DNA of 64,000 nucleotides from contig DASVOS010000010.1 of NCBI GenBank assembly GCA_036383255.1, positions 1-64,000 of the forward strand, in the 5' to 3' direction. The position numbers and the translations under genes are program-made. Source of the DNA: Gammaproteobacteria bacterium (GTDB lineage Bacteria; Pseudomonadota; Gammaproteobacteria; Natronospirales; REEB76). The notes below the pieces were generated by a model that did no database searches, was not told the origin of the DNA, and saw only the letters and a program-made list of their open reading frames with translations. Positions within the stretch are counted from its first letter, which is position 1. The number at the start of each line of letters is the position of its first letter. Of the stretch, positions 7,730-22,612 are shown one piece after another.

Positions 7730-10700
7730 AGCAAGTCACCGCAGCGCTCCTACAAAGATTGGGTTACTCCGGGTCTCGAGGATTCGTCCCATCGGAACGC
7801 TTTGGCACAATGCGAGCAAATCGACACGTGCTGCTTCAGGCTCAAGAGCGAGTCGGTGTTATTGGCGTATTCGGAATATTTGGAAAACGAGAGGATACGC
7901 ACGAGTATTTCACGCCCATTGTATACATAGCCGAATGTGAGTCAGCGAAAGCGCGGGAACACCATAAGGCGGTGTGGAATCAAGGCGTGGTTCCTTATCT
8001 GTTGCTGATTACAGATGAGGAAATTTTGCTCTGCGAAGGATTCCGGTTCTCAAATAGAGAAATTGGCAACAACAATTGGCCGGGTCTACTGGAGCGTACT
8101 TCTCACAATTCTCTGTATCTACAGTCGGGATTGCCCTCGTACTTGAAGTGGCTGTCTGCTTACGAGCTTCAGTCTTCAATCTTCTGGCGCGATAGACAGG
8201 TAGGAAATATAGACATTTCCGGCCGTGTTGATTATCAGCTGCTTAATGGTCTCGACGCGCTCACTGACTGCCTTACCAAAGCAGAAGGAGTCCTTGCGGA
8301 CCGCAATTTGCGACCGCTAGATGTTGAATCAGCACACGCTTTAATTGGGCGAGTTCTCTATTTGTATTTTTTGCATGATAAAGGCCTTCTTTCTAACAAT
8401 TGGAGAGCAGACGCCTTTCCTGGAATTAATTTTGATCAAGCGTCCGGCTGGGATGCCGAACAATTCTGGCAATTATCAGACGAAATTGATTCAGTGTTTA
8501 ATGGCAGTGTATTTCCGTTGTCAGCGTCAAAGAGAAAGCGCATTGAGAAAGGGCATATTGAGTTTGCACAAATAGGCCTGAGATATGCAGATAGTTTGGG
8601 AACGGCTGGTTTTCAAAACCGTCTAGACCTATTTGACTACGATTTTTCAACCCTTCGAATTGAGACCTTGTCTTCGGTCTATGAGCAATTCTTACGTGGC
8701 TACGGTGAAGATGCGCAGAGAAAACTCGGGGCCTACTACACGCCGCCATTCTTAGTTGACTATGTCCTTAGCACGGTAGAGGAAAACGTACCTCTCGAGA
8801 GAGGCGTAAGAATCCTGGACGGGGCGGCTGGCTCAGGCGCCTTCCTGGTCGCCGCTTATCGCCGAATAATCGAGTCGACACTTGGGGCAAGTCGACACTC
8901 GCTGCCAATTCGCGATCTTCAATCTATTCTCAAAGAAAGTATCTTTGGTTACGAGTTATCGGCCGATGCATGTCATGTCACATGTTTCAACTTGTATCTG
9001 ACGCTCCTGGACTATGTAGAAGAAGCTGACCTGCGCCAGTTGCTATCTCAGAAAGGCCGCAAGAAAGTTTTTCCAGCTTTACTTGACACGAATGTTGTAA
9101 ACGCTGATTTCTTTGATCGGCGCAACGAGAATCGATCTAAGTTTGACGTTGTCGTTGGAAATCCGCCCTGGAAGGCCATTGATGCTAACCAAGACAAAGT
9201 GGCTGACCGATACCTAAAGATTCATTTCGCAGAGCAACCCATCGGAGAGCGGCAACTAGCAGAGTTATTCGTTTGGCGATATTTAACTACGTTTCTTAGC
9301 AAAAATGGTGTTGCCGGACTATTGATGCCGAGCAAATCATTCTACAACCCAGCATCTCGAGCATTTCGTACTGCTTTGGCGAGAGCGAGCACACTAATAG
9401 GTGTCGCGGACTTTTCTAATCTCCGGCATGTAATGTTTGAACGCGCGGTGCATCCTACGATGGCGCTTTTCTTTAGGAAAAAGGATCCCGCCACAGACGA
9501 TTCGGTGTGGCACTTTTCTCCTATACGAGCAGAGCAACCAGGCGCCGTAGCTCGTTCTAATGACAAGACGCGGATGTGGACTCTTTTCATTGACGAGGCC
9601 GCGGTTCAAGTCACCCCATATTCGGCAATCGAAAGGGAGCCAGACATCTGGTCTCGCCTTGCTTGGCAAAAACCTATTGACAGGCTATTAATGAATTATT
9701 TTTGCGACTTGGCGGCGCATCGCTATTCAAACTTAGAAACCTGCGCTAGGAAATTAGATATCTCGATAGCCCGCGGAGGAAACTCCTCTGATACAGGAGT
9801 GCCAGATAAATATATTCTGACTGCAAGACCCAGTGATGATACCTACTTCCTTCATCATCTAAAGCTGAAGTCGGTAACACGGTCTCTTTTCCCCGCGTCG
9901 TCATCAAGTATTGTGCCGCTACCACAAATCATATCGAGACGAGCGAGAGGAACCTACAAGCAAAAATTCCAAGGACCTCTTATTTTGTTGCCCCGCTCGC
10001 TTGCTGACGTCTATTACGTTGACGCCGACATAGCCTATAACAGCTCTTTTATTGGCTTGAGTACGAAAACAAGCTCCAGCCACGAGTTTTTGGAAGCGCT
10101 GAGCAAATACTTGAGTTCAAAAGTTGCCAAATATTTCCTTATCCTTCGTTCAACTCGCTTCCTGGTCGACAGACCGAATATTGAGCCAATGATACTTGGG
10201 CAATTGCCCATCCCCTTTGCAGAGGACGGGGTTTTGCAACAACAGTTAATTGCAGCAGATAGGTCTCAGGTAGATCAGATTGTATTTGACGCTTTGAAAC
10301 TCACCCCTGAGTACCGTCTCGCAGTTGATGAATTTTTGAAATTGCGTTCTCAATTTGCGGATGGTCGAATACCCGACGAAGCCACACGCCAAGTCACGTC
10401 TGCCGAATTGCATGAATACTCCAAGTTTCTCAGTTCAGATTTGGATCGGTGGTTGGGCCGAGAAGCTAGCTATACCATCCGGATAATTGAAGCTCGGAAT
10501 CGAGGTGTATGTTTGGTCAAGGCCGCCTACAGAGATGCGGGGGGCGGACGCAGAAATGACATTGCTGCGGATGCCGATTTAGAAGCCTGGCTTGATCAAC
10601 ATATCCGAAATGGTTTGAGCTCACTCAGCAATAGCAGTGCTGTAATTCGGGATCAAAGTAGTGCGTCGATTTACCTCGTAAAGCCGCTTGAATTTATGCA

Positions 10701-10773
10701 CTGGACGGTGGAGCGCGCCTTTGCCGACAGCCAGAAGATGGTTCGCGCTGTTATGGCGGGAGCTGCGGCTTAG
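7726..10773 (+). CDS. Eco57I-type N6-adenine DNA methyltransferase (restriction-modification)
   Basis: 1015 residues. An N-terminal domain of about 300 residues is of uncertain fold; it includes CESAKAREHHKAVWNQGVVP and a strand reading YLLLITDEEILLCEGF. Then follow the gamma-class N6-adenine methyltransferase landmarks: GAYYTPPFLVDYVL near 335, the SAM-binding motif ILDGAAGSGAFLVA near 363 (DGAAGSG in place of DPACGSG), and the catalytic NPPW in VVGNPPWKA near 478. The C-terminal half probably holds target recognition. It modifies adenine in a specific DNA sequence. Overlaps the MerR-like gene by four bases and precedes a nuclease gene by three bases. Could be a type IIG-like enzyme if the N-terminus is itself a nuclease, but no clear catalytic triad was seen there. 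Confidence 0.85.
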   Translation: MKQVTAALLQRLGYSGSRGFVPSERFGTMRANRHVLLQAQERVGVIGVFGIFGKREDTHEYFTPIVYIAECESAKAREHHKAVWNQGVVPYLLLITDEEILLCEGFRFSNREIGNNNWPGLLERTSHNSLYLQSGLPSYLKWLSAYELQSSIFWRDRQVGNIDISGRVDYQLLNGLDALTDCLTKAEGVLADRNLRPLDVESAHALIGRVLYLYFLHDKGLLSNNWRADAFPGINFDQASGWDAEQFWQLSDEIDSVFNGSVFPLSASKRKRIEKGHIEFAQIGLRYADSLGTAGFQNRLDLFDYDFSTLRIETLSSVYEQFLRGYGEDAQRKLGAYYTPPFLVDYVLSTVEENVPLERGVRILDGAAGSGAFLVAAYRRIIESTLGASRHSLPIRDLQSILKESIFGYELSADACHVTCFNLYLTLLDYVEEADLRQLLSQKGRKKVFPALLDTNVVNADFFDRRNENRSKFDVVVGNPPWKAIDANQDKVADRYLKIHFAEQPIGERQLAELFVWRYLTTFLSKNGVAGLLMPSKSFYNPASRAFRTALARASTLIGVADFSNLRHVMFERAVHPTMALFFRKKDPATDDSVWHFSPIRAEQPGAVARSNDKTRMWTLFIDEAAVQVTPYSAIEREPDIWSRLAWQKPIDRLLMNYFCDLAAHRYSNLETCARKLDISIARGGNSSDTGVPDKYILTARPSDDTYFLHHLKLKSVTRSLFPASSSSIVPLPQIISRRARGTYKQKFQGPLILLPRSLADVYYVDADIAYNSSFIGLSTKTSSSHEFLEALSKYLSSKVAKYFLILRSTRFLVDRPNIEPMILGQLPIPFAEDGVLQQQLIAADRSQVDQIVFDALKLTPEYRLAVDEFLKLRSQFADGRIPDEATRQVTSAELHEYSKFLSSDLDRWLGREASYTIRIIEARNRGVCLVKAAYRDAGGGRRNDIAADADLEAWLDQHIRNGLSSLSNSSAVIRDQSSASIYLVKPLEFMHWTVERAFADSQKMVRAVMAGAAA

Positions 10774-10776
10774 CTT

Positions 10777-11553
10777 ATGACGGAAGGGATTCCGGCACAA
10801 AACGAAGAAGCTTTCCTGAAGACGCTTATTAGTCGTGGGTTAGCACCCGATGAAGCGCAACTCTGGTTGCAGCTTTGTACTATTTCCATAAGATATATCC
10901 ATGGTGCCGAGGGGTTGTTGAAAGACGGTTGGCAAGAATTTCTGGCAAAAATAGAAGCTCAGAGAGTCGCGGCCAAAGATAAAGCAAAGAGGACGACTAG
11001 GAAGAGAGCTCCCAAGGGAGTAGCAAAAGCTCGTTTGCCAGAAGAAACAGATATTACTGTCGAGCTATACCACCACATGGATGTCGTTAGGGGAAGAAGT
11101 GAGCTGACTGATGGGTTGAGACAAATCGAGCCAAAATGTGACGATCCCATTCCGGCTCCGACCAGAACCGGAAAATATTCTCGGAAGCCTGATCTCACTT
11201 TTATTCATATGGCGACGCGTGAGAAAGTTGTTTTTGAAGCAAAGCGGTTGCTAGATGGATCGTCTATACAGGCATATAGGGGGTTAGAAGGTATGGGCTG
11301 CTTCAGCTCTACTGATAGTCCCTATTCGACTGGTCCAATTGTCGGAATGTTGGGCTATGTTTTAGAAGATAACGTTATCAATTGGCATACGAAGCTCAAA
11401 GACAGTGGAATCGTTTTTGCTGCAATATTTGGTCCGGTGACTCTGCCCGTGTCGGTTCCATACTCGTGGTACGACAGAACCGCGCTAAAGCTAAACGAGG
11501 CAGCGATGTTTCATTACTTGGCCGACTTTACCCCGTCGTCTGCAAAGAGCTGA
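10777..11553 (+). CDS. Putative PD-(D/E)XK restriction endonuclease
   Basis: 258 residues. A Lys/Arg-rich stretch lies at about 68-87. The centre carries a PD-(D/E)XK-type active site: KPD at 138-139 then, 14 residues on, E154-A-K156 in VVFEAKRL, with a possible earlier acidic residue in the helix before. The spacing and the hydrophobic strands around it are typical of restriction nucleases. The gene starts three bases after the methyltransferase stop, so the two are co-transcribed and form an inferred restriction-modification pair. No full-length family was recognised. AT-rich composition matches the rest of the unit and suggests transfer. Confidence 0.72.
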   Translation: MTEGIPAQNEEAFLKTLISRGLAPDEAQLWLQLCTISIRYIHGAEGLLKDGWQEFLAKIEAQRVAAKDKAKRTTRKRAPKGVAKARLPEETDITVELYHHMDVVRGRSELTDGLRQIEPKCDDPIPAPTRTGKYSRKPDLTFIHMATREKVVFEAKRLLDGSSIQAYRGLEGMGCFSSTDSPYSTGPIVGMLGYVLEDNVINWHTKLKDSGIVFAAIFGPVTLPVSVPYSWYDRTALKLNEAAMFHYLADFTPSSAKS

Positions 11554-11639
11554 TAGAAGCGTACTTTGCAGCGATAAGCAGCAATAAGGGAAAAGGAATC
11601 AGGTCCTGACTTAATACAATAACGGCGACGCAGGATTTC

Positions 11640-12359
11640 TCATGCAGGGGTGTATTTCTTTTCAAATAGCCGCTGCTTCTTCTTATCAATTGTCCAAGCT
11701 TCCATCTCTCTTTGCCGCTCTTCTAGATCTGCTAGATGAATCCAATAGTCACGCGGATGAGCCTTGTTAGGTGACTTGATCAGGTCTTCAAGCATCGCTG
11801 AAAGCTTGTCTAATGCCGATTTCTTCTTGTACAGGTCAATGACTGTTATCGCTTCTATTTCCGCCGTAGCATCCGCGTTTATATCTGTATTGTCGGAATT
11901 CAATGCTGAAACCCACTGACCATGAGCTAATTTATTGCGAATTAAACTAGGGTCGAAAATATAGTCGTTAATTAATTGCTCTAGTTTCTTTTTGACGTTA
12001 GGAATGTGATTGCTTCGTTGACTTGCTACGCGTGCTAAAGCTAAGTCAGAGGCTTTTAGCCACCCTTCTTTGATGCCTTTAGCGTTTATGCGTCTCTTAA
12101 TTTGAGATATTGAATTCAAATCCAAGCCATTTGGCGTGTGGATTATTTTTGAGAAGAGAGATTCAGCAAGTCCGCAGTAGATAAGAGCGAGAAGCTTTGA
12201 TTGAATTACGATTCCATTCTCATCATTTTTGGCTATCAATACATTTAACTGACGATTAATATGTGTCCATGTTTTTTCTAGTTGCCTGACATTTCTAGTT
12301 TGTGCTTTGAAAACTTCAACCCTTTGAGGGTCGCTCATATCTTTCTTAAAGATATTCAA
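11640..12359 (-). CDS. HEPN-motif protein, possible RNase of a defence island
   Basis: 239 residues, mostly alpha-helical by composition and rich in Lys, Asn and Ile. The key sight is R141-N-K-L-A-H146 followed by GQW: the RX4-6H motif of HEPN RNases, placed after a helix as in MAE_28990-like and related HEPN proteins. HEPN proteins often cleave RNA in toxin-antitoxin, abortive infection or restriction-linked systems. It is convergent with the restriction-modification unit, 86 bases from its end. No obvious antitoxin partner lies next to it. Assignment to a specific HEPN family is not possible by eye. Confidence 0.65.
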   Translation of the reverse strand: MNIFKKDMSDPQRVEVFKAQTRNVRQLEKTWTHINRQLNVLIAKNDENGIVIQSKLLALIYCGLAESLFSKIIHTPNGLDLNSISQIKRRINAKGIKEGWLKASDLALARVASQRSNHIPNVKKKLEQLINDYIFDPSLIRNKLAHGQWVSALNSDNTDINADATAEIEAITVIDLYKKKSALDKLSAMLEDLIKSPNKAHPRDYWIHLADLEERQREMEAWTIDKKKQRLFEKKYTPA

Positions 12360-12382
12360 AGCACATTACTCCCTCAATGTAC

Positions 12383-12452
12383 TTCACCCGCCCGGAATCG
12401 AACCGGGATCACCGAGTTACCGGTGGTCTTAGCCTAGTTAAACGACAGGTCA
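12383..12452 (-). tRNA. Degenerate tRNA-like gene (probable tRNA remnant)
   Basis: Read on the minus strand, 70 bases fold as a near-cloverleaf. The T-arm is perfect (CCCGG, loop TTCGATT, CCGGG). The D-arm is GTTT/AGAC with loop AACTAGGCTA containing GG. The anticodon stem is CACCG/CGGTG, and the acceptor is TGACCTG against CGGGTGA with one G-G mismatch and one wobble pair, then discriminator A. Defects: six-base anticodon loop (GTAACT), two-base variable region, base 26 missing, no CCA. It is more likely a decayed tRNA or old attachment site than a working tRNA. Confidence 0.4.
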
Positions 12453-12476
12453 ACAATAGTATTGCACCAAATCGCG

Positions 12477-12506
12477 ATAGGAGACAGACCACGATTAATT
12501 CGGCGG
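12477..12506 (+). repeat. 30-base direct repeat, left copy
   Basis: ATAG plus GAGACAGACCACGATTAA plus TTCGGCGG; an identical copy lies at 13086-13115. The two copies bracket the Rap1a-like gene. The repeat begins 24 bases from the tRNA-like remnant. Confidence 0.85.
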
Positions 12507-12642
12507 TGGCGCGGCCGCTCCGCGCCAGCGTTCGGCGGGGGCCTTTATATAGTGAGTGAACAGGTAGGGCCACGAAAGGAAAGGAAATAGAGGACAAACC
12601 CCAATTGTTAGCCTAGCACGTAGTATTCAAGGGAGATAACCA

Positions 12643-13089
12643 ATGAGTAGATCATTTCTATGCACACTGGTATTTGTTGGGATTATGGCGCTAAAACAAG
12701 CGACAGCGGGCGATATTGAAAAAACTGACGGAGGTGGCGCGTCCCTAGCGTCTTTCTGCAACCAAGCTAATCACGATAAAGACAACTACGAGTGGGGGAG
12801 TTGCATAGCCTACGTAACAGGTGTGACAAATGGCTTTGATCAAGCCATTATCACCCTCGCAAATGCTAGCGGCGGTAAGGCTTTAAAACCCGAAGATGCC
12901 AAAGCATACAAAGAGAGCGCCGAACTTCTATATCATGTTAGCTGCAGACCTATTGGTTCTACACCAGAACAAACGGCGTTGGTCGTCGCCAAGTACCTGG
13001 CTGACAACCCGCAGGACCTTCACCTGAACTCGAGCGTTCTTATCATGAGCGCAATCGCGCAAGCATGGCCGTGCTCAGGCAAAGAATAG
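12643..13089 (+). CDS. Rap1a/Tai-family immunity-like secreted protein
   Basis: 148 residues with a signal peptide (1-22) ending near TAG. The mature part shows the Rap1a/Tai pattern: an early FCN segment, WGSCIAYVTGVTNGFDQA, a mid-chain SCRPIG, and the end KYLADNPQDLHLNSSVLI with a final WPC. Cysteines are paired as in the family, whose known members are periplasmic inhibitors of type VI secretion amidase toxins. No toxin gene is adjacent, so it may be an orphan immunity gene. The gene is flanked by a 30-base direct repeat whose right copy begins within its stop codon. Function as immunity is inferred from family resemblance. Confidence 0.7.
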   Translation: MSRSFLCTLVFVGIMALKQATAGDIEKTDGGGASLASFCNQANHDKDNYEWGSCIAYVTGVTNGFDQAIITLANASGGKALKPEDAKAYKESAELLYHVSCRPIGSTPEQTALVVAKYLADNPQDLHLNSSVLIMSAIAQAWPCSGKE

Positions 13090-13115
13090 GAGACAGACCA
13101 CGATTAATTCGGCGG
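13086..13115 (+). repeat. 30-base direct repeat, right copy
   Basis: Identical to 12477-12506 over 30 bases, starting inside the stop codon of the Rap1a-like gene. The GC-rich sequence after both copies is also similar (CGCGG). Confidence 0.85.
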
Positions 13116-13150
13116 CGCGGCAGGGCCCAGGTTTTGAGTTACAAAGGCAT

Positions 13151-13444
13151 CTATGGATTCCACGAGAGATGCGCCTTTGGGTCCTCTCCGAAACCGGCAG
13201 CCATTAATACGTCTCGCCAGTCAATTTGTGCCTCGCGCACGGTCTGCCTAAGTTTGGTTAAGTCTCCACCTGAAAGCTTAAGTACGGCTAGGTGGATTCT
13301 TTCGTTGCCAGCGACGTCACCAGGCACGGAAAATGGGAGAGTGTCTCCACACTCGGCACGCAGGTATTCCTCAACTTCCGCAACGTAGGCGGGTTGGAAT
13401 AACTTTCTAATCCGAGACTTTGTGCCTTCGCTTAGCTCAGTCAT
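13151..13444 (-). CDS. Conserved hypothetical protein
   Basis: 97 residues, soluble and with no signal peptide. Its centre reads RIHLAVLKLSGGDLTKLRQ and its end DWRDVLMAAGF. These resemble a small family of uncharacterised proteins often seen next to phage or immunity genes, in which the Leu-Ser-Gly-Gly-Asp and Asp-Trp-Arg-Asp-Leu pieces are conserved. That resemblance is from memory and function is unknown. On the minus strand with the next two genes, so it may be the last gene of a short operon starting at 14016. Confidence 0.6.
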   Translation of the reverse strand: MTELSEGTKSRIRKLFQPAYVAEVEEYLRAECGDTLPFSVPGDVAGNERIHLAVLKLSGGDLTKLRQTVREAQIDWRDVLMAAGFGEDPKAHLSWNP

Positions 13445-13453
13445 TTTTGTCTC

Positions 13454-13570
13454 TCAAATATTCGGAAGTCGTGGCGGCGGCGGAGCCGTACCGGGGTCTG
13501 GAGCCGGGGGCAGATCGGGAGTCGGCGGCGCAGTTCCAAGATCCGGAGGAGGAAATGCCGTGCGGTTCAT
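13454..13570 (-). CDS. Possible small proline-rich protein
   Basis: 38 residues starting MNRTAFPPPDLGTAPP, with internally repeated Pro/Asp/Gly-Thr-Ala units. The start lies two bases after the stop of the lipoprotein gene, so translation could be coupled, but no ribosome site is evident. Low-complexity GC-rich sequence can give such a frame by chance. Confidence 0.25.
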   Translation of the reverse strand: MNRTAFPPPDLGTAPPTPDLPPAPDPGTAPPPPRLPNI

Positions 13571-13572
13571 GG

Positions 13573-14016
13573 CTAATACTCCGTGAACATCAGTACTTCG
13601 GAATAACGGATGAATGTCTGCCCGGCGTGGTCGGTGCCGCAATCTAGCAGGTAGTAGCTAACCTTTTCAGATTCAATCTTGAAGGTGTAGGTGCGGTCTT
13701 CAGGGAGAAGGTCGCCGTTCTTGATCGCGTCAAGCATTCCTTCGTCACCGGTTTGCCGACGACATTGCAGGGTCGCGATGTACTCGCCGGGACGTAGCCA
13801 TAAGGCGGTCGTGGTCGATGATGGTTTGAAGGGCGAACTACCGTCGTCTTTCTTGCCTATCTCTTGTATCTGGACGGCGGGGCTAGAATCAGGAAGGGTC
13901 GCGATCTTCAATTGCACGTACATATTGAAAGCAGGAGGCGTATCTCTTATGGGCGCACAGCCATATAGGGCGGCAATTCCAGCCACCAATAGATAGACGA
14001 GCGGATATCCCCTCAT
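13573..14016 (-). CDS. Small lipoprotein of unknown function
   Basis: 147 residues from ATG 14016, which has AGGGA six bases upstream; an ATG six bases earlier lies too close to that site. The signal peptide MRGYPLVYLLVAGIAALYGC ends in a lipobox, so the mature protein is membrane-anchored by lipid. The body has a beta-rich look with TTTALWLRPGEYIATLQCRR and a Cys near the end (LLDCGTDHAGQTF). The signal peptide and its DNA closely resemble those of the gene at 16892-17371, although the mature parts differ. Divergent from the gene at 14167 across leader copy 1. No family recognised. Confidence 0.7.
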   Translation of the reverse strand: MRGYPLVYLLVAGIAALYGCAPIRDTPPAFNMYVQLKIATLPDSSPAVQIQEIGKKDDGSSPFKPSSTTTALWLRPGEYIATLQCRRQTGDEGMLDAIKNGDLLPEDRTYTFKIESEKVSYYLLDCGTDHAGQTFIRYSEVLMFTEY

Positions 14017-14082
14017 AGACATTCCCTGTAATCCCTGTCCTGTTTCCCGTCTCAAGTATAAGCGCACTCTTGCCCACCTGAA

Positions 14083-14159
14083 GGGGCTATAGAATCCCCG
14101 GTTTTATCGCTAGGATTAGGCTGTCTTAGCGCGCCAGGGATTTGGGAAAGGGGTACACG
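14083..14159 (+). repeat. Leader repeat, copy 1
   Basis: Begins GGGG-CTATAGAAT-CCCC (hairpin), then GGTTTTATCGCTAGGATT, AGGCTGTCTTAGCGCG, and ends TTGGGAAAGGGGTACACG. It is nearly identical to copies at 14585, 18334 and 21505 and shared in part with those at 15350 and 19562. A TTGCCC box lies 12 bases before TATAGA here and in copies 4 and 6. Probably promoter plus 5-prime leader and ribosome site (AAAGGGG). Confidence 0.85.
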
Positions 14160-14166
14160 GAATCTC

Positions 14167-14571
14167 ATGGAAATCGTATTGCAGACCAATAAGGAAAACC
14201 CAAGTCTTGTGTTCCAGAACGTGACCCGGTTTCGTGACTCATCTGGATATGCAGTAGACCTGTCCATCGCTTCGGGTGCCTTTTCGGCGATTTATCCGTT
14301 CTATTTCGAAGAGTATCCTCTGACTGAATTCATCTCCTCACTATCTGCTATGGATGAGACCCTGTCGGGGAAGGCGACGCTTAAGCCCATGTGGGAGAAA
14401 CAATTCATAGAGTTCATCGCGGGTAATAGCGGGCATGTCACCGTACGAGGCGAGCTGCTGGAGCACGGCGCATTTACGCAGAAACTGGCTTTCGGATTCA
14501 AAACCGACCAGACCTGCCTGGGACCCTTCATAAGGGCATTGAAGTCTATGCAAACCATGGACCCGGAATGA
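14167..14571 (+). CDS. WapI-like immunity family protein
   Basis: 134 residues, cytoplasmic, with no signal peptide. The second half reads EKQFIEFIAGNSGHVTVRGELLEHG, then FGFKTDQTCLGPFIRAL: the pattern of WapI-family immunity proteins (beta-strand, GHVTVRG turn, FKTDQT-LGPF helix). Such proteins neutralise contact-dependent toxins of the WapA/Rhs type. No toxin gene adjoins it, so it would be an orphan immunity gene. Preceded by leader copy 1; its ATG lies seven bases after the conserved leader end, so unlike other units the leader is not fused exactly at the start codon. Family call from memory of the pattern. Confidence 0.6.
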   Translation: MEIVLQTNKENPSLVFQNVTRFRDSSGYAVDLSIASGAFSAIYPFYFEEYPLTEFISSLSAMDETLSGKATLKPMWEKQFIEFIAGNSGHVTVRGELLEHGAFTQKLAFGFKTDQTCLGPFIRALKSMQTMDPE

Positions 14572-14584
14572 TCGCGGTGGCGCT

Positions 14585-14665
14585 GGGGCTATAGAATCCC
14601 CAGTTTTATCGCTAGGATTAGGCTGTCTTAGCGCGCTCTCTTGGAAATTTGGGAAAGGGGTACAC
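14585..14665 (+). repeat. Leader repeat, copy 2
   Basis: Starts GGGG-CTATAGAAT-CCCC 13 bases after the previous stop and continues through the same core to GGGAAAGGGGTACAC, ending exactly at the GTG start of the next gene. The TTGCCC box seen ahead of copies 1, 4 and 6 is missing. Confidence 0.85.
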
Positions 14666-15310
14666 GTGAATCGTCATTTGGGTTTTTGCGCACTGACTAT
14701 TGCGCTTAGCGCGACCGGTTGTACGTCTACGCCTTCCATGCCAGTGGCGCGGGCTCCGATCGGGGCCAGCTGCGCGATAGCGGAGTGGGTGCCCATATGT
14801 GACGCAGACATCCGGAAGCGCTTTCCCGAGATATTACCGTCGGACAAGATTCTGGATAAGGATTTCGATGATTCAGCCGAGCCTGTCACGGCCACGGTGA
14901 CCTATACACCAGAGATCACCGGTCCGCACACCGTGAAGGCGAAAGTGCTGATCTGTTCCGAGTACGGCGAAGGACAGGATTTCGACTGTCACTTGACCCG
15001 GCCGGTGGGCTATTACGACACCGACCCAAACCTCTATTTACGGATCTCCAAGCAGGTAAGTACCGATTTTGCTCAACAGGTTATCCATCTATGGTCACAA
15101 GGCAAAGTGACCGTTGAGCGAAGCGACTGGCTGCTCTCTTTGCGGCTAACGGACGTTCGGAACTTCATATTGGACTACCACCTGCACGGCGTGTACGTGC
15201 TGATGATGATTTCCAGCGGGTGCAATGGTCCGATATATATCAGAATCGAAGGGCAAGCCGATTCAGAACAACTTCGGGTGACTAGGCCTCCTGAGGTTAT
15301 GTGCATCTGA
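14666..15310 (+). CDS. Lipoprotein of unknown function
   Basis: 214 residues from GTG 14666, which directly follows leader copy 2 (AAAGGGG at good spacing). The signal peptide MNRHLGFCALTIALSATGC has a lipobox (SATGC), so the mature protein is lipid-anchored. The middle contains a beta-rich part with VTATVTYTPEITGPHTVKAK and paired cysteines (VLICSEYGEGQDFDCHL, later SSGCNGPIYIR). No enzyme motif was seen and no family recognised. The context of immunity-like neighbours suggests a role at the envelope, which is inference only. Confidence 0.68.
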   Translation: MNRHLGFCALTIALSATGCTSTPSMPVARAPIGASCAIAEWVPICDADIRKRFPEILPSDKILDKDFDDSAEPVTATVTYTPEITGPHTVKAKVLICSEYGEGQDFDCHLTRPVGYYDTDPNLYLRISKQVSTDFAQQVIHLWSQGKVTVERSDWLLSLRLTDVRNFILDYHLHGVYVLMMISSGCNGPIYIRIEGQADSEQLRVTRPPEVMCI

Positions 15311-15349
15311 GCAAGAAATAGCGGTGGGAAAAAGAGGCGGTTCAGACTT

Positions 15350-15408
15350 ACACTCGGATGAGACTGTCTTAGCGCGCGCTTCTGGGGAATTTGGGGAAAG
15401 GGATGCAA
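15350..15408 (+). repeat. Leader repeat, copy 3 (truncated)
   Basis: Only the right part is present: CGGATGAGACTGTCTTAGCGCG through GGAATTTGGGGAAAGGGATGCAA; the hairpin is absent. Ends at the GTG that aligns with the start used after copies 2 and 4. Confidence 0.7.
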
Positions 15409-16047
15409 GTGAATCTTAAGAATTTTCTGGGGCTACTAACCTTACTAGGGTTGGCTACTGTTGCTATGGCTGCAGACCAACCAGCTTCCAACGGACCTGA
15501 CGAGTTAGTGTTCAAGGCGCCCGACCATCTCTTGCCTTTGGATGGAGGCGGTATTGGTTTGTATCAGGGATATCTAGATTTCCTGAAAGCCGTCACCCCC
15601 AGATCGGACAACCCGCAGTCTTCCGTATATATCTGGCCATCCTTCAAGCCCGCAATTTTCATGGCGATTTATCAGACAGGTGATGAGAAGAGTTATTACC
15701 TTCTGTACGCTTTGGCTACTAAGCCAAATCCCACAGTATCGACAATGCCCGTACCAGATGCCTTTGCTAAGGCGGTATCTGAGAAGCTTGAAAAAATTAT
15801 AAGGGCGAGTACGCACTACCCAAGTGCAAATCAGGTGTATATCGAATGTACTGATGGGACGAGCTATATATTCGAGAGTTATAACTTATATGGCGCGGCA
15901 GGTTGTCCTGCCGCAGGTGTCTCACTGCAATTGGAGCACGTGGCGAACGATCTTGTCGATTTAGCTGAATTGAGGCTGGCATCACAGCCAGAGCAGAAAG
16001 CGAAGATGGAAAAGATCCTGTCGGAGCTCGATGCGACGAGTTACTAG
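15409..16047 (+). CDS. Secreted protein of unknown function
   Basis: 212 residues from GTG 15409, chosen because it aligns with the GTG fused to leader copies 2 and 4; ATG 15403 two codons earlier is equally possible. The signal peptide VNLKNFLGLLTLLGLATVAMA ends just before ADQ, so the protein is periplasmic. The mature part holds LDGGGIGLYQGYLDFLKAV, YYLLYALATKP, and a YIECTDGTSYIFESY strand, with two cysteines (IECT, GCPAAG) that could pair. No known family was recognised. It may be a periplasmic immunity-like protein given its neighbours, but that is only inferred. Confidence 0.65.
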   Translation: MNLKNFLGLLTLLGLATVAMAADQPASNGPDELVFKAPDHLLPLDGGGIGLYQGYLDFLKAVTPRSDNPQSSVYIWPSFKPAIFMAIYQTGDEKSYYLLYALATKPNPTVSTMPVPDAFAKAVSEKLEKIIRASTHYPSANQVYIECTDGTSYIFESYNLYGAAGCPAAGVSLQLEHVANDLVDLAELRLASQPEQKAKMEKILSELDATSY

Positions 16048-16083
16048 AATTGGTCGTGTTGTATATATGAGTAAGGAAGGGAA

Positions 16084-16863
16084 GTGAAGGATCAACAAGA
16101 GAGCGAGCTTCACCTCACAAAGATGAACCTGACTTGGGCGAATCTTAAGCTATGGTTCATCCAGCATCATGTCTACATCGAAGTGAGTCTGCTACTCACG
16201 ATGCTGCTTTGGGCAGGGGTGGAATATTTCTATCACCCTAACGCGACTCTACCTGTCCCCGCAGATGGCAAGCTGGCTTGGGGTACCGCGGCCTCCTCAT
16301 TTCAAGTCATCCAGCAGGGGACGACCCTCACGCTTACGCGGTATCGTGGCGGCGCGCAGGTCTATCTCATGTTGTTCATGTTCTACCTCTGCGTCTACAC
16401 GACATTGGAGATGTTCGCTGTCGCCATCGGCAGGGATGACAAGCCGCCTATCCATCAGCGCATTATCTCCAAGAGAGGGAATTGGCTATCAATGCTGGGC
16501 TCCGTGCTGGTTAACCTCTTCCTGGTATTTGTTCTCGCGGTTCTTTGGTTGGGACTATTTTATCCGGAGTTCCGGGCGGTGACCTACACCGAGGTAATCA
16601 CCATTTCACCTGCGGATGATCTGATCAGTTGGGATGGTGAGCCATTTCTGAATATAAGCCAGGTGGGCTATTTCTACGGAGAGCGGCATGGCGGCCGCAT
16701 AAAGACATACGAGTGGGGCGTGTACCTCATGGATGGGCAGACCGTCGTATTCAACGATGATTCGACTATCACCTCAGATATCTACGATGAGGACCGGAAT
16801 TCTTCTCTAGTTGTGTTTTTGAACAATTATTTGGGCAAGACGCAACCCGGCAATCCAATGTAA
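16084..16863 (+). CDS. Membrane protein of unknown function
   Basis: 259 residues from GTG 16084, with GGAAGGG upstream. Three hydrophobic segments (about 24-45, 98-118 and 137-162) flank a short cytoplasmic loop with basic residues (DDKPPIHQRIISKRGNW). The C-terminal about 95 residues, rich in Tyr, Asp and Glu, are predicted outside the membrane. It follows the secreted protein gene by 36 bases on the same strand, so the pair may be co-transcribed from leader copy 3. No family recognised; it could be an inner-membrane immunity protein. Confidence 0.62.
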   Translation: MKDQQESELHLTKMNLTWANLKLWFIQHHVYIEVSLLLTMLLWAGVEYFYHPNATLPVPADGKLAWGTAASSFQVIQQGTTLTLTRYRGGAQVYLMLFMFYLCVYTTLEMFAVAIGRDDKPPIHQRIISKRGNWLSMLGSVLVNLFLVFVLAVLWLGLFYPEFRAVTYTEVITISPADDLISWDGEPFLNISQVGYFYGERHGGRIKTYEWGVYLMDGQTVVFNDDSTITSDIYDEDRNSSLVVFLNNYLGKTQPGNPM

Positions 16864-16891
16864 ATCGGACAAAATCTGAGTCCAAACCGGC

Positions 16892-17371
16892 CTAGTCCGA
16901 GGACGGAGCACACGCCTTCCGGCCCGCGATATCCGCAGTGAGCTGCATGAACCGCATGTAATCGGGATCGCCCCACGCTTTGTGGACCCGCTTGGGCGGG
17001 TCGGTGAGGGTGGCATCCACGAGGATCGTCCCCTTGCCGTCCAGCATCGCGTAGCGCCTTGCGGTATACCGCAGCGTGGCGCAATCCAGGCGCATCTCCA
17101 CCCATTCCTCCATCACCCCGTAGCGGCCGTGATGCTGCGGCTCGTCATAGATGAGCTTGCCCCACACGTCGAACTGGTCAGCCTGGGAGCTGTCCGCTAA
17201 TCCCAGCGGCTCGCTCAGGGCCACATAGAGCTTGCGGGCGGGGTCCTTCAGGACGTGGGGAGCCTTCTCCCATACCCCCAAGCCGGAGATGTCCGGCTCC
17301 GCCGCGGACGCGCCAAGGCCCGTCACGGCCATCCCCACTGCCAGCAGATAGATGAGCGGATACGTCTTCAT
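16892..17371 (-). CDS. Surface-adhesin E-like secreted protein
   Basis: 159 residues from ATG 17371. The signal peptide MKTYPLIYLLAVGMAVTGLG matches closely that of the lipoprotein at 13573-14016. The mature part resembles the surface-adhesin E family seen beside phage and immunity genes: VWGKLIYDEPQ, MEEWVEMRLDCATLRYTARR, then a final Cys (IAGRKAC) that would pair with the DCAT cysteine. Probably periplasmic or surface-exposed. The family call is tentative. Upstream sequence includes a TATATA box near 17399 for the minus strand. Confidence 0.58.
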   Translation of the reverse strand: MKTYPLIYLLAVGMAVTGLGASAAEPDISGLGVWEKAPHVLKDPARKLYVALSEPLGLADSSQADQFDVWGKLIYDEPQHHGRYGVMEEWVEMRLDCATLRYTARRYAMLDGKGTILVDATLTDPPKRVHKAWGDPDYMRFMQLTADIAGRKACAPSSD

Positions 17372-17462
17372 AGAGCCGGCCCTTTGGATACAGTCCACCT
17401 ATATAGACGGTGGGGCACAACCAAAGGTTTAAACCGACAAACGGAAGGGAAGTGCCCGCCGG

Positions 17463-18251
17463 TCAGCCTAGATTCACCGCCGTCGAGATGCCCTGGATCA
17501 GCGCCATGAGGCCGCCGACGATGAACCCGCGCTGCATGGCCTGGGCCACGGTGCGCCTGAGGTCAGGCTTGCCGGAAGCGTCGCCGGACAGCAGGCGCGT
17601 GGTGTAGCTGCGCACGCCGCCCTTCGTCGCCCCGGCCATGCCGAGGAGGATGAGGTGGAGCAGCAGGCTGCTCAGCGCCGCGACGATCAGGGTCAGGAAG
17701 AGGATCATCAATATGAGCATGATCACGCCCCAGAACCCGGGGCCGGGCCCGCCGAAGCCGCCGCCCGCGAAGGCCACGATGGGGGTCGCCGCGCCGAGCA
17801 CGCCGGCGGAGGCGTCGGACCATGCGGCGGGCAGCATGGTGACGCCCGCCGCGCCGGTCACGTAGCCGACCGCGATGCCGATCGCCCCGGTGAGCGCCAC
17901 CTGGCCGAAGAAGTGCGCGTCAAGTTCCGGTGCCGCGACGCGCCGGTTGAAGAGCGCGGAGACGAAAGACTCCACACCCGCGGCGGTCTTGACCGTGGAT
18001 CTCAGGACCGCGACGGCGACCCCGGCACAGAGGCCGAAGAACACGCTTTGGGCGACGTTCGCCGCCAGTCCGGGCAGGGTGTCCCAGGCCGCGTCGCTCA
18101 TCAGGAAACCGGTCGCGGCCAGCAGTATGCGCAGGGCGCTGATGAACCCCCACAGCCCCAAGCCGAACACGCCAAGGCCGATGAAGCCCATGAACCCGCC
18201 GGAGGCGGGCGTCGAACTCGAACCTGAATTGCTGGGATGGACGACAGTCAT
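17463..18251 (-). CDS. Glycine-rich polytopic membrane protein
   Basis: 262 residues from ATG 18251, which has GGAG eight bases upstream; an upstream GTG has no ribosome site. Four or five hydrophobic segments: about 18-45, 58-78, 103-135 and 145-195, with a Gly/Pro-rich turn FAGGGFGGPGPGFWG. Short basic loops face the cytoplasm. No transporter motif recognised. Its upstream region (AAGTATAGG near 18309) resembles that of the lipoprotein at 14016, and both genes are divergent from a leader repeat. Function unknown. Confidence 0.6.
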   Translation of the reverse strand: MTVVHPSNSGSSSTPASGGFMGFIGLGVFGLGLWGFISALRILLAATGFLMSDAAWDTLPGLAANVAQSVFFGLCAGVAVAVLRSTVKTAAGVESFVSALFNRRVAAPELDAHFFGQVALTGAIGIAVGYVTGAAGVTMLPAAWSDASAGVLGAATPIVAFAGGGFGGPGPGFWGVIMLILMILFLTLIVAALSSLLLHLILLGMAGATKGGVRSYTTRLLSGDASGKPDLRRTVAQAMQRGFIVGGLMALIQGISTAVNLG

Positions 18252-18333
18252 GGGCTGGACTCCGTTCCAGGGCACCTAGATCTGAAGACGCATCATTCCC
18301 CCGCCCCAAGTATAGGCAGCTTTTGCCCTCCCA

Positions 18334-18416
18334 GAGGGCTTACAAACCCTCCGGCTTTATCGCTAGGATGAGGCTGTCTTGACGCGCTCTCTCGGAAATT
18401 TGGGAAAGGGGTACAC
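18334..18416 (+). repeat. Leader repeat, copy 4
   Basis: The hairpin is GAGGG-CTTACAAA-CCCTC, a compensated variant of GGGG/CCCC in copies 1 and 2. The rest (GGCTTTATCGCTAGGATG, AGGCTGTCTTGACGCG, GGGAAAGGGGTACAC) follows the consensus and ends exactly at GTG 18417. A TTGCCC box lies ahead, as in copies 1 and 6. Confidence 0.85.
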
Positions 18417-19556
18417 GTGAAATCCAGGGCTTTAAGTGCGGCGTTGGTCGTGATGGCATCTCTTGCGTCGATTTGCGTTGATGCCGCTGCTGAGACTCCT
18501 CCGGACATCAAGACGCGTCCGTCTGACGATGGCGGCTATGTACTCACGCTAACGAGTGCCGCTATCACCAATGTGCCTGCCGCGCAGGCAGCGCTGGTCC
18601 CGGCAGCGCAGAAGGCCTGCGCCGGCAAGATCCCCCAGTTTGGGCACTACAGGTTCAAGTCGACAGAGCCTGTGAGCGCCGATGGTAAGGGTGACAGAGC
18701 GAAGACCAGTTTCGCGATAGACCAGGACATCACATGCGCAGACTCACCCGCACAGGTGGTGCAGCCGGCGCCTACTGACCCGAATTGGCGGCCGAGTCAG
18801 GCGGACCTCCAGGCAGTCACCGATACCATAAGGAAGTATTTCATCGCGAAAGACCGCGGGGACGTCGCCACCACCTACGCCCTGTTGGATGGCGGGATGG
18901 GTCTCTCCGTCGAGGAGTGGAAAAGCACTTCTCAGGAGTTCACCGCCCAGACGGGGGCGGCGATAAGCCATAAGGTCGTGAAGCTCACCTGGTACAAGGA
19001 TCCGCAGAACGCACCCGCACCTGGCGTCTATGCAGCCGCAGATTTTGTGGATCAGTATGAGAAAGCCACTGACTGCGGCTATCTGTCACTGCACCAGAGA
19101 TCCGATGGTTCGTTCCGGGTGATCCATGAGCAAGACGGATTCATGCCGAATCACTCCGATATGACTCCCGCCCAACTGGCCGATTTGAAGGCAAAGCTCG
19201 GCTGCGTAAGCGATGAGCCGGCACCGTTGCCTGAGACGAAAGCCGACGCCGTCGGCTATCCAGACGTGGATACGGCCCGCAAGGCACTATTGGCGAGGAA
19301 AGATGCCCAGTCACACACTGACAACGGCTGGCTGGTGGTCTATTTGCCGTCTGAATATACGCTCTGGTCGTTCTCGCCACCCAGCGACCCCTCTTACCCC
19401 GCGGCGGTTAAACGAGTCGTTACCAAGGGCGCGAACAACAATACGATGATCTCGATGAGTGTCTTGTGCCAGGCCTCGAAGCAGGCCTGCGACAACCTTG
19501 TCAGGCAGTTTCAGGAGCTCAACGAGCAGATTAAAGCTTCTCTGAACCATCAATAG
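18417..19556 (+). CDS. Secreted DUF4019-containing protein
   Basis: 379 residues from GTG 18417, fused to leader copy 4. Signal peptide about 1-25 (SICVDAAAE cleavage region). N-terminal domain to about 110 with cysteines in KACAGKIP and DITCADSP. Central domain about 130-250 matches the DUF4019 plan: a helix with AKDRGDVATTYALLD, VEEWKSTSQEF, VYAAADFVDQYEKATDCGY and GSFRVIHEQDG. The C-terminal part (from about 270) has a conserved-looking VYLPSEYTLWSFSPP and two cysteines (LCQAS, ACDNL). Periplasmic; function unknown. Confidence 0.7.
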   Translation: MKSRALSAALVVMASLASICVDAAAETPPDIKTRPSDDGGYVLTLTSAAITNVPAAQAALVPAAQKACAGKIPQFGHYRFKSTEPVSADGKGDRAKTSFAIDQDITCADSPAQVVQPAPTDPNWRPSQADLQAVTDTIRKYFIAKDRGDVATTYALLDGGMGLSVEEWKSTSQEFTAQTGAAISHKVVKLTWYKDPQNAPAPGVYAAADFVDQYEKATDCGYLSLHQRSDGSFRVIHEQDGFMPNHSDMTPAQLADLKAKLGCVSDEPAPLPETKADAVGYPDVDTARKALLARKDAQSHTDNGWLVVYLPSEYTLWSFSPPSDPSYPAAVKRVVTKGANNNTMISMSVLCQASKQACDNLVRQFQELNEQIKASLNHQ

Positions 19557-19561
19557 AATAT

Positions 19562-19598
19562 GGCGCGCTCTCTCTGAAAATTTTGGAAAGGGGTACAC
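19562..19598 (+). repeat. Leader repeat, copy 5 (truncated)
   Basis: Only the 3-prime third is present (GGCGCGCTCTCTCTGAAAA to GGAAAGGGGTACAC), six bases after the DUF4019 gene stop. The GTG that follows (19599) opens only a 16-codon frame ending at 19649, four bases before the next gene, so this leader looks cut off from its original gene. Confidence 0.75.
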
Positions 19599-19652
19599 GT
19601 GATCTGCAGAAGTCCGAGGGTGCAAACTTTCATGGCAGGGCATTCATAGATC

Positions 19653-19949
19653 ATGTGGGAATACATCGGACTTGCAGCTGGGGTACTAGTTGTTACCCTA
19701 ATTGCTTTCATGAGATTGAACTCTGGAAAGTTCCTTTTTGCCATCGATGCTGTCCTCATGTTCCTGGGCATGGCGGTCATGGTCGGTATTACAGTCGAAG
19801 ACTTTCTTGGCACAGTAGCAGGGTGGAGTGCTGCGGCCACGTATCTGGCAATTGTTGCTTCCGTGATATTCGTGTCTATAAGGAGCAAGCAAGAAGAGGA
19901 TCGGAAGAGAGCCTGGAAGTCTTGGGTGAAAGGTGGGCGCTACGATTAG
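19653..19949 (+). CDS. Small membrane protein of unknown function
   Basis: 98 residues starting MWEYIGLAAGVLVVTLIAFM. Three hydrophobic segments (about 3-20, 28-48 and 53-75) and a charged C-terminal tail (RSKQEEDRKRAWKSWVK), predicted cytoplasmic. It begins three bases after a 16-codon frame driven by leader copy 5, so translational coupling is possible. No ribosome site directly before its ATG is obvious (GGGCATTCATAG). No family recognised. Confidence 0.55.
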   Translation: MWEYIGLAAGVLVVTLIAFMRLNSGKFLFAIDAVLMFLGMAVMVGITVEDFLGTVAGWSAAATYLAIVASVIFVSIRSKQEEDRKRAWKSWVKGGRYD

Positions 19950-20020
19950 GGCACTGCTGGGTCGACTTTTCCCGGTCTGCTGCTACCTTTAATCCATAGG
20001 GCTGAAGGGAGCGGAAAACC

Positions 20021-20284
20021 ATGCGTACAAGTGGGTGGTGGGTATTCGCCGGCCTTGCCTTGCTCGGAGCCGTTCCCGGTCCCGCACAGGCCGATGTCTC
20101 CTGGACCGGCCCGGGCCGGTACGTGGAATCCACGGAGACGGGGTTCGACTCGTCCCTGGTCTCCGGCCCCTATGCGGACAAGGGCCAGTGCGAGTCCGCC
20201 AGGCCCGCCGACACCGATGACTACAGCTGCGACTGCGAATACGAGAGCACGGATCCAGACGCAGCAAGCCCGCCCCGGATCTAG
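20021..20284 (+). CDS. Small secreted acidic protein
   Basis: 87 residues with a clear signal peptide (1-24, ending AQA) and a GAAGGGAG ribosome site. The mature part of about 63 residues is acidic, with a GPYADKGQCESAR segment and a DYSCDCEYES cluster giving three cysteines. Periplasmic or exported; no family recognised. GC content is higher than in its neighbours. Confidence 0.55.
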   Translation: MRTSGWWVFAGLALLGAVPGPAQADVSWTGPGRYVESTETGFDSSLVSGPYADKGQCESARPADTDDYSCDCEYESTDPDAASPPRI

Positions 20285-20406
20285 GCGAGCGGACTACTTG
20301 CAGGGATAGAGCGCGTGCAGGGCAGCTTCGATGCCTTCCACGTCTTGCCTTTGGAAACCCCCGGCTTATCACTACTATTGGCAGGCAAGCAAAGCAGGGA
20401 TCGCGG

Positions 20407-21438
20407 ATGGATCTTCGAGAGTACGACTACATCATGCGCCGGCCTGATACCCTCCCTCGGAGCAGCCTTGTCTCCGTCAAAAGGGTGCTCGTGAGGCTTG
20501 GCTCCAGCAATGCTGCGTTGATCGATAAGGTCCTGGCGACGGGGTATCTTGAGCCTCCCCCAGGCTACAAATGGCATGGTTGCTACAAGATCAATCTGAC
20601 GCGGCGAGAGATCCAGGCTGTCATAGATGACCTGGTGAAGGCCCGGGACATGGGGGTTACAGGTGTAGCACCTGGCGATAAAGACGCTCTGCAGTATCTC
20701 GGGCAGTACATCAAATATGGCTACAGGCTCCTTGAGGAAGTGCCCGAATCCTATGAGGACTATAAGGCGAGGCAAGCCTATTACGACCTGAGGGATATCT
20801 CTTACGAAGCGTTTCTGAACCTGGTCTTTGACCATCCGGTTGCCCCCAAAGGCAACACGCGTGAGCAATGGTTCTGGAAAGTCGGAATCGACTTTTGGAT
20901 TGATTGGGATAAGGCACATATAGTGCGCCGGTATACCGAACTTTTCTCGCGGTCCGATGGCCTGCTTGCGCGCTATTCAAAAGACAAGCTGGAGCAAGGA
21001 TTCTGGTTCATGATGAGCGGCTCTTTGGACTTCAGCGTAGAGAAACTTCTCAATGATGATGAATTGGCGATAGAGTTTAAGGAAGAACTGATCGAGTCTA
21101 TGTACTTTTTGTATGAGAAGCTTTTTTTCGAAGAGCCTTTAGACACATCCAGCGACATGTGGTGGGATAACTTTTGTCATCCGTACTGTGTGCCCGGAGT
21201 AAAGGACCCAATCAACAACGAGGAACACCGGCGGCTGCAGGACACGCTGTTCCGTACGCTCAAGCGAGTACTCGCGTTGGATTCCGAGATATGCGAATGG
21301 GCTGCCTTGCATGGACTAGGCCACTTGATGCATCCGGATACTGAAAGGGTAATAAAGGATTTCATAAAGAAGCATCCGGAGTTGACCGAAAAGCAAATCG
21401 ACTACTGCAATAACTGCATCATGGGCGACATCATGTAG
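20407..21438 (+). CDS. Uncharacterised cytoplasmic protein, possibly immunity-type
   Basis: 343 residues with no signal peptide. The N-terminal 130 residues are basic (RRPDTLPRSSLVSVKRVLV; ARDMGVTGV). The rest is rich in aromatic and acidic residues: WFWKVGIDFWIDWDKAH, LFSRSDGLLARYSKDKLEQGFWFMM, a helical FKEELIESMYFLYEKLF, and an ending LHGLGHLMHPDTERVIKD with CNNCIMGDIM. The SKDKLEQGFWF style and final helices recall helical immunity proteins of polymorphic toxins, but no family can be named. Upstream, CCCCCGGCTTATCAC near 20357 is a weak relative of the leader repeat core. Confidence 0.6.
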   Translation: MDLREYDYIMRRPDTLPRSSLVSVKRVLVRLGSSNAALIDKVLATGYLEPPPGYKWHGCYKINLTRREIQAVIDDLVKARDMGVTGVAPGDKDALQYLGQYIKYGYRLLEEVPESYEDYKARQAYYDLRDISYEAFLNLVFDHPVAPKGNTREQWFWKVGIDFWIDWDKAHIVRRYTELFSRSDGLLARYSKDKLEQGFWFMMSGSLDFSVEKLLNDDELAIEFKEELIESMYFLYEKLFFEEPLDTSSDMWWDNFCHPYCVPGVKDPINNEEHRRLQDTLFRTLKRVLALDSEICEWAALHGLGHLMHPDTERVIKDFIKKHPELTEKQIDYCNNCIMGDIM

Positions 21439-21504
21439 AGGGAATATTAATAATCGAAAAGGGGTCGGAGCCCTTTTTGACTAGGGGCGCTTTTTGCCCA
21501 TCTG

Positions 21505-21580
21505 AAGCGACTACAGAATCTCCGGTTTTATCGCTAGGATTAGGCTGTCTTAGCGCGCTCTCTCTGAAATTTGGAAAAGT
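21505..21580 (+). repeat. Leader repeat, copy 6
   Basis: Follows the consensus from the CTACAGAATCTCCGG region through TTTTATCGCTAGGATTAGGC, TGTCTTAGCGCGCTCTCTCTG and AAATTTGGAAAAG, then diverges before the usual AAAGGGGTACACGTG end. A TTGCCC box lies ahead, as in copies 1 and 4. Confidence 0.82.
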
Positions 21581-21592
21581 ATTTCCGCAGTC

Positions 21593-22147
21593 ATGAGAAC
21601 ACTCCAACTGCCTTATTCCGCCAAGGCGCGTATCTGGATCGGGGATTTGCCGCGCGCGGGGTATCCGGCCAGGGATACGCTCCGACGCACCTATGCCGCA
21701 TTAGGAAGCGCCAATGGCACAAAGGCCGTCGGCGCCGTCGAAGTCATCAGGGCTGTTGGCCGGCCTTCCAGTTATGGCTTACTTGGCGGTGAACTGGTAC
21801 TGGATGCATCCAGTGACTTTAGAGTCACCGTGCACACGGCTATGCCTCATGGGTCCTCTTATGCCGACACCATTGCAGCCGGTCCAGAACATGTTCGTGT
21901 GGGATTGCTGGAGGAATATGCAGAGGGCGTCTTTGAAGGTGTGGAACTGGCAAAGAACCATGTTAGTTTTGATTTTGCCGGTGAACTGACGGTGAATCGG
22001 GCAGCGCACAGCGATGTTGAATCCTCGCAGATCATGTTCAAGCATCTGTCGCTGGTCCTCATGAAGATGCTTTGTATGCAAGAGCAGAGTCCTTCGGGTG
22101 ACGATCTGCTCGACCTATTTTGGGATAAGTTCGGGGAGTTCGACTGA
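21593..22147 (+). CDS. Uncharacterised protein downstream of leader copy 6
   Basis: 184 residues, soluble, no signal peptide. The start reads MRTLQLPYSAKARIWIGDLP; the middle holds VEVIRAVGRPSSYGLLGGEL and HTAMPHGSSYADTIAAGPEHV; and YAEGVFEGVELAKNHVSFDFAG leads to a C-terminal helix with LVLMKMLCMQ. The pattern suggests a mixed alpha/beta cytoplasmic protein of about the size of many immunity proteins; no family recognised. The ribosome site is weak because the conserved leader end (GGGGTACACGTG) is lost here. Confidence 0.6.
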   Translation: MRTLQLPYSAKARIWIGDLPRAGYPARDTLRRTYAALGSANGTKAVGAVEVIRAVGRPSSYGLLGGELVLDASSDFRVTVHTAMPHGSSYADTIAAGPEHVRVGLLEEYAEGVFEGVELAKNHVSFDFAGELTVNRAAHSDVESSQIMFKHLSLVLMKMLCMQEQSPSGDDLLDLFWDKFGEFD

Positions 22148-22175
22148 GCCCTCGGTAATACAATCATGAGGCTAT

Positions 22176-22523
22176 ATGGGTTTAGATGAATTCAGGGCTG
22201 AAATGAACGCGTATCGGCAAGATGCCGTTGCATACGCCGAATCCCAGAAGGAGATGCAGCTGGTCTCGGAGAGACTTGGGCGGCTGTACAAAAAGTTCGA
22301 TGCCGATGAACGCTTGATGGCCGACCAGATAGTGGGCGAATGGATTCTCTCCGATGATGAGAGCATTCGTTTTGACGCCATGGACCTCATAGAAGATTTC
22401 AAGATCGTCTCTGCTACATCAGCCTTAAGCCTTCTAGCTGACCGCCTGACTACAAGCAAATCACCTGGCGCGCCCTTTGAACGAAAGAAGATTGAAAGAA
22501 TCTTGCTGGAACTGGAGAAATAG
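22176..22523 (+). CDS. Small helical protein of unknown function
   Basis: 115 residues, all-helical in appearance and acidic. LVSERLGRLYKKFDADERLMAD and the repeated-helix region IRFDAMDLIEDFKIVSATSALSLLADRL look like one or two HEAT-type repeats. Starts 29 bases after the previous gene with ATGAGG upstream, so the two are probably co-transcribed. HEAT-like partners are common among immunity and phage-related proteins; no specific function can be given. Confidence 0.58.
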   Translation: MGLDEFRAEMNAYRQDAVAYAESQKEMQLVSERLGRLYKKFDADERLMADQIVGEWILSDDESIRFDAMDLIEDFKIVSATSALSLLADRLTTSKSPGAPFERKKIERILLELEK

Positions 22524-22596
22524 CAGGGGGGGGGTAGACCACGGTTTCCGGCACCATGCAATCCCCTCCCTTGTCACAAAAGATTCATACAAGTAG

Positions 22597-22612
22597 CCCC
22601 CCGAAAGGGGGG
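22597..22612. repeat. Short GC hairpin at the right end of the accessory region
   Basis: CCCCCC-GAAA-GGGGGG, a six-base stem with no T-run. It lies 74 bases after the last gene of the mosaic region and may mark its right border. Termination activity is uncertain. Confidence 0.35.

Follow-up and report, generated by a model that had tools for sequence, protein, structure and literature searches.

Putative mobile promoters are reportedly repeats of 50–100 nt, about 80% or more identical, that lie upstream of non-homologous genes within one genome. Mobile promoters of this kind (Matus-Garcia et al. 2012) are cited in PMC8049555 and PMC11111574, and promoter capture that activates transferred genes is a documented process (PMC11111574). 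Loci that gather immunity genes have also been described: polyimmunity genes are closely spaced, share one orientation and are probably polycistronic (Zhang et al. 2012, PMC3482391), and rAID has been described in a Bacteroidales setting (PMC12247911). Here we analyze a 64,000-nucleotide stretch (the window; positions 1 to 64,000 of contig DASVOS010000010.1, assembly GCA_036383255.1) from a member of the Gammaproteobacteria, in which a leader of ∼80 bases has been copied before five or more short genes, unrelated to one another, of a single foreign-looking island; this island seems to gather immunity genes directed against the toxins of other bacteria. From the sequence, the locus is probably an island gained by horizontal transfer, a heterogeneous set of orphan immunities of the polyimmunity type, in which captured genes would have been given a duplicated leader made up of promoter, 5′ untranslated region (UTR) and ribosome binding site (RBS).

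The leader looks like a local case of the putative mobile promoter family and not like a new gene-exchange machine. Its copies fall within the length and identity said to characterize mobile promoters and likewise precede non-homologous genes, but here the copies are confined to a single 8-kb locus of immunity-type genes, and the duplicated segment extends as far as the start codon. Polyimmunity loci (PMC3482391) cluster several unrelated immunity genes without toxin genes, and here unrelated candidates for immunity genes likewise lie together, with no toxin family found among the array proteins; unlike in those loci, leaders of ∼80 bases separate the genes, most genes have a leader of their own, and those at 13573, 16892 and 17463 lie on the minus strand. 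These minus-strand exceptions aside, the largely co-oriented, short genes of low guanine-cytosine (GC) content, the orphan immunities and the conserved intergenic motif recall rAID (PMC12247911). However, the locus has no tyrosine recombinase, the island is GroEL-flanked and outside the Bacteroidales, and the intergenic motif here resembles a leader with promoter and RBS; identity with rAID was rejected because no recombinase lies nearby. An integron cassette array also consists of unrelated single genes divided by a repeat, but here the repeat sits at the 5′ gene ends and carries the start codon, and genes occupy both strands; reading of the leader sequence found no GTTRRRY attC core on either strand, and this candidate was rejected on that ground. 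Intergenic repeats act as promoters in halovirus HF2 (PMC8707807) as well, but HF2 is an archaeal virus and its repeats are position-conserved among related viruses. With mobile promoters and polyimmunity or rAID loci as close precedents, the statement in the preliminary description of this DNA that no system of this form had been described was too strong. What is new is the combination of putative promoter propagation with a probable orphan-immunity locus, seen in one genome.

Leader copies and the genes behind them

A repeat search, BLAST of the genome and sequence alignment placed six leader copies, four near-full and two partial, all on the plus strand (Table 1), where the preliminary description had located them. 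Identity to the query leader was 82–100% over 86–102 nt for four copies in the genome BLAST. Within the window, a 21-base core matched four times against 0.01 expected, and a 24-base ribosome-site block three times against 0.00 expected. Copies 1 and 4, and copy 6 in part, reach ∼20–30 bases further left than first drawn. The left extension of copies 1 and 4 falls in a divergent intergenic region, and these two copies, lying between divergent genes, may drive both sides.

As had been described, copies 2, 3 and 4 run into GTG starts, and in each of them the terminal GTG opens a signal peptide. Copy 1 has lost a base near the GTG, and its gene begins at an ATG a few bases downstream; the GTG of copy 5 opens a dead open reading frame (ORF) of 16 codons, with the next gene beginning ∼50 bases later. 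The left truncation earlier ascribed to copies 3 and 5 is plain in copy 5; in copy 3 the left portion is lost or strongly diverged, and traces of similarity reach slightly further upstream than the truncation point. A right truncation of copy 6, which removed GGGGTACACGTG, had been overlooked. A weak seventh copy at 20350-20383 ranked fifth among all window positions in a search with a left-half profile built from the four near-full copies, and its end lies 23 bases short of the ATG at 20407.

BLASTP detected no similarity among the proteins encoded behind the leaders, in agreement with the earlier view that they are unrelated, and at the DNA level tblastx yielded nothing beyond weak noise in antisense frames. 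Between copies 1 and 2, 44 of 45 positions across the hairpin stretch and core are identical, and an alignment of 52 bases is 98% identical, yet the genes behind them have no detectable homology; therefore either the leader was duplicated on its own or other genes took the place of the original ones. Short duplication or recombination of the leader is the most economical account. Copies would have spread locally through duplication of short segments or through homologous recombination of one leader with another, with no dedicated recombinase, and each newly arrived gene would have been placed under, or have landed beside, a ready-made expression leader. Old tandem duplications of whole units, in which the genes diverged past recognition while the leaders stayed alike, could explain the common orientation and clustering of the copies, but we regard them as highly improbable, as the genes behind the near-identical copies 1 and 2 differ in length, family and localization. 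The simpler case that the preliminary description had set against its own proposal, a single tandem duplication with homologous downstream genes, finds no support in these comparisons.

Table 1. Positions of leader copies and of genes in and beside the array, numbered from the first base of the window.
Feature	Position	Strand	Remarks
Leader copy 1	14062-14163	+	Left part full, short UTR deletion (BLAST, alignment)
Leader copy 2	14585-14672	+	Near-full, terminates on GTG start
Leader copy 3	~15348-15416	+	Partial, left portion lost or diverged, terminates on GTG start
Leader copy 4	18314-18424	+	Full, terminates on GTG start
Leader copy 5	19560-19602	+	UTR/RBS end only
Weak seventh copy	20350-20383	+	Left half only, precedes gene at 20407
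Leader copy 6	21485-21579	+	Near-full, right end lost
Rap1a-type immunity protein gene	12643-13089	+	Family match; outside leader array proper
Lipoprotein-like gene, divergent from copy 1	13573-14022	-	Signal-peptide DNA in common with 16892-17371
WapI-like immunity protein gene, behind copy 1	14167-14571	+	PF24716, E 5.7e-10
Lipoprotein gene	14666-15310	+	No family match; GTG start inside copy 2
Exported protein gene, behind copy 3	15409-16047	+	No family match
Membrane protein gene, copy 3 unit	16084-16863	+	Weak ABC2_membrane_3, under cut-off
Exported protein gene	16892-17371	-	GC 0.65; signal-peptide DNA in common with 13573-14022
Membrane protein gene, divergent from copy 4	17463-18251	-	GC 0.69
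Exported DUF4019 protein gene, behind copy 4	18417-19556	+	PF13211; extra C-terminal domain
Small membrane protein gene	19653-19949	+	ORF
343-aa protein gene	20407-21438	+	Distant plasmid homologue
Probable RHS-associated immunity protein gene, behind copy 6	21593-22147	+	Homologue neighbourhood

Leader anatomy and the question of a regulon

From left to right, the leader comprises a flank, TTGCCC (common to copies 1, 4 and 6), a GC-rich stretch, a 26-base core, TTTTATCGCTAGGATNAGGCTGTCTT, and a UTR with the ribosome-site end AAATTTGGGAAAGGGGTACACGTG. The best-kept parts are the core and the ribosome-site/start region, and within the inner portion of the leader the GC-rich hairpin stretch varies most: pairs of near-full copies agree at 24–26 of 26 positions in the core versus 11–18 of 19 in the hairpin stretch. 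Selection on promoter and RBS would be expected to leave such a difference. We infer that the core is a promoter with a −10-like TAGGAT and a transcription start a few bases downstream, and that the remainder is a 5′ UTR with GGGAAAGGGG as the ribosome site. Because a simple sigma-70 scan of the leader returned no consensus promoter, we do no more than infer its promoter activity.

The preliminary description had also proposed that the hairpin keeps its pairing through different bases, and this did not survive comparison of the copies. When folded as DNA, copies 1, 2 and 4 each formed a stem and copy 6 formed none of note, with z-scores from +0.1 to −2.0. The stem of copy 4 sits in a different register, such that GGGG/CCCC and GAGGG/CCCTC are different pairs, the second of them shifted. 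A covariation check across the copies found no in-register stem pair changed on both sides (0), and sliding the stem partner by one column scored equally well or better. Since this stretch is also the least conserved in the leader, the covariation argument for the hairpin is unsupported. A structured RNA leader was rejected on the 0 compensatory pairs together with the lack of any Rfam match at the leaders.

A different explanation for the conserved core is a common local regulon, in which the core is bound by a single regulator or an alternative sigma factor that co-induces the array genes, for example on envelope attack, with similarity kept by selection. It would fit with the core being best conserved in all near-full copies and present in weaker form at 20350, with the poor sigma-70 match and with the export of several products. 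However, the genome has no site elsewhere, which is unusual for a regulon, and similarity extends into the UTR and RBS as well, a sign of copying beyond a shared binding site; we therefore consider a local regulon unlikely. The earlier suggestion of a shared leader before non-homologous genes is supported, but a genome-wide regulon is not, as no leader copies occur elsewhere in the genome.

Distribution of the leader and the possibility of gene exchange

According to the preliminary description, many further copies ahead of non-homologous genes in this genome and its relatives would support an exchange array; none was found elsewhere in the genome, and none was recognizable in the relatives. 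BLAST of the genome (2,585,380 bases in 18 contigs) gave no significant leader match outside the array locus, and a relaxed pattern recovered the same sites plus scattered 3-mismatch matches. The leader was not found in 11 other family genomes, and the class genomes searched contained no convincing copy, the matches of 16–31 bases at E 0.005–0.1 looking like chance. Searches with two exact leader patterns in GTDB genome contigs, from which near-identical genomes may be missing, and with three in IMG/VR returned nothing, and BLAST of the leader against plasmids also returned nothing; diverged leaders would escape such searches. In other genomes, homologues of array genes were not accompanied by repeated leaders, with the exception of one attC-like array, in which the WapI-like gene of another class genome (G242; L050:1-3678) stands amid repeated spacers, AACAAG...GTTAGGTG, that look like integron attC sites. 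Because this relative has such a gene among repeated attC-like spacers, we conclude that WapI-like genes are mobile elsewhere.

These distributions bear on the possibility of a cassette-exchange array, in which leaders act as recombination sites: units of leader plus gene would come in from other strains and integrate at resident leaders through homologous recombination (RecA, natural transformation), with turnover of the gene content. The WapI gene between copies 1 and 2 forms a clean leader-gene-leader unit, the copies are co-directional with unrelated genes behind near-identical leaders, and two minus-strand genes likewise combine a common signal-peptide head with different bodies. However, no other searched genome has the leader and could represent a donor or variant, no recombinase adjoins the array, and the short CGCTA/TAGCG inverted repeat inside the core is not intact in copies 3 and 4. 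Taken together, we regard an exchange array as doubtful.

The N-termini of the two minus-strand proteins gave the sole significant BLASTP match in the array. The DNA at 13971-14019 and 17326-17374 (minus strand), which covers the start codon and signal peptide, is 73% alike over 49 nt and occurs nowhere else in the genome; the proteins are unrelated.

The island and its immunity-type genes

The array lies in a low-GC island at 7000-22600 (GC ∼0.45–0.58, about 0.50, versus 0.67 outside) that is bounded by groEL on one side and two chromosomal genes on the other; its flanking genes are not adjacent to each other in family genomes. The island contains a type IIG restriction-modification gene (REase_MTase_IIG). 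A tRNA-like match at 12383-12452 (minus strand; under the Rfam gathering threshold, its 3′ half matching well, 24.5 bits) is a possible integration remnant. The genome has three PF00589 matches, the nearest a tyrosine recombinase at C10:92585, ∼71 kb off.

Three genes are immunity-type candidates, encoding the Rap1a protein, the WapI-like protein and the 21593 protein, a homologue of which on the Methylosinus plasmid pOB3b3 has an Imm26 immunity gene on one side and RHS core genes on the other; the other proteins are unassigned as to immunity. Family searches found no toxin family among the array proteins, some of which remain without assignment. Most of the others had neither a family match nor a homologue among 370 class genomes at E 1e-6, and AlphaFold models built from single sequences for two orphan proteins were unusable (mean pLDDT 34 and 42). 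The last 100 residues of the DUF4019 protein recur as small independent proteins in several other genomes and on a Pseudoalteromonas plasmid.

The Rap1a gene is bracketed by a perfect 30-bp direct repeat, ATAGGAGACAGACCACGATTAATTCGGCGG, at 12477-12506 and 13086-13115, the only two copies in the genome. It represents a second and independent instance of an immunity gene enclosed by direct repeats.

Elsewhere in the genome, RHS-repeat proteins are encoded at three places (L103, L104 and L105), each beside a small gene of GC 0.43–0.45 that is probably its immunity gene. Two of these small genes carry export signals. The island and the RHS loci have no immunity DNA in common.

The proposal of an acquired orphan-immunity island with a duplicated leader draws its support from the restriction of the leaders to one locus of the genome, from the Rap1a and WapI-like families and the RHS-linked homologue, from the low GC of the island and from a genome with RHS proteins but no type VI secretion system (T6SS) sheath gene. 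Weighing against it are the single genome on which the account is based, the immunity role of three genes being assigned by family or neighbourhood while most others are unique sequences, the host-like GC of the region at 16.9–18.3 kb (genes 16892-18251) and of 20021-20284, and the missing sigma-70 consensus noted above.

A further reading of the locus is that of a recombinase-free capture array for immunity genes, in which the promoter-RBS-start leader doubles as insertion homology and gene content turns over between strains; we put this forward as a tentative and rather improbable extension. Acquired immunity genes are useless until expressed, and a locus that supplies promoter and ribosome site would explain how they function on arrival. 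Such a locus would tie promoter propagation to interbacterial defence, two topics that are usually separate.

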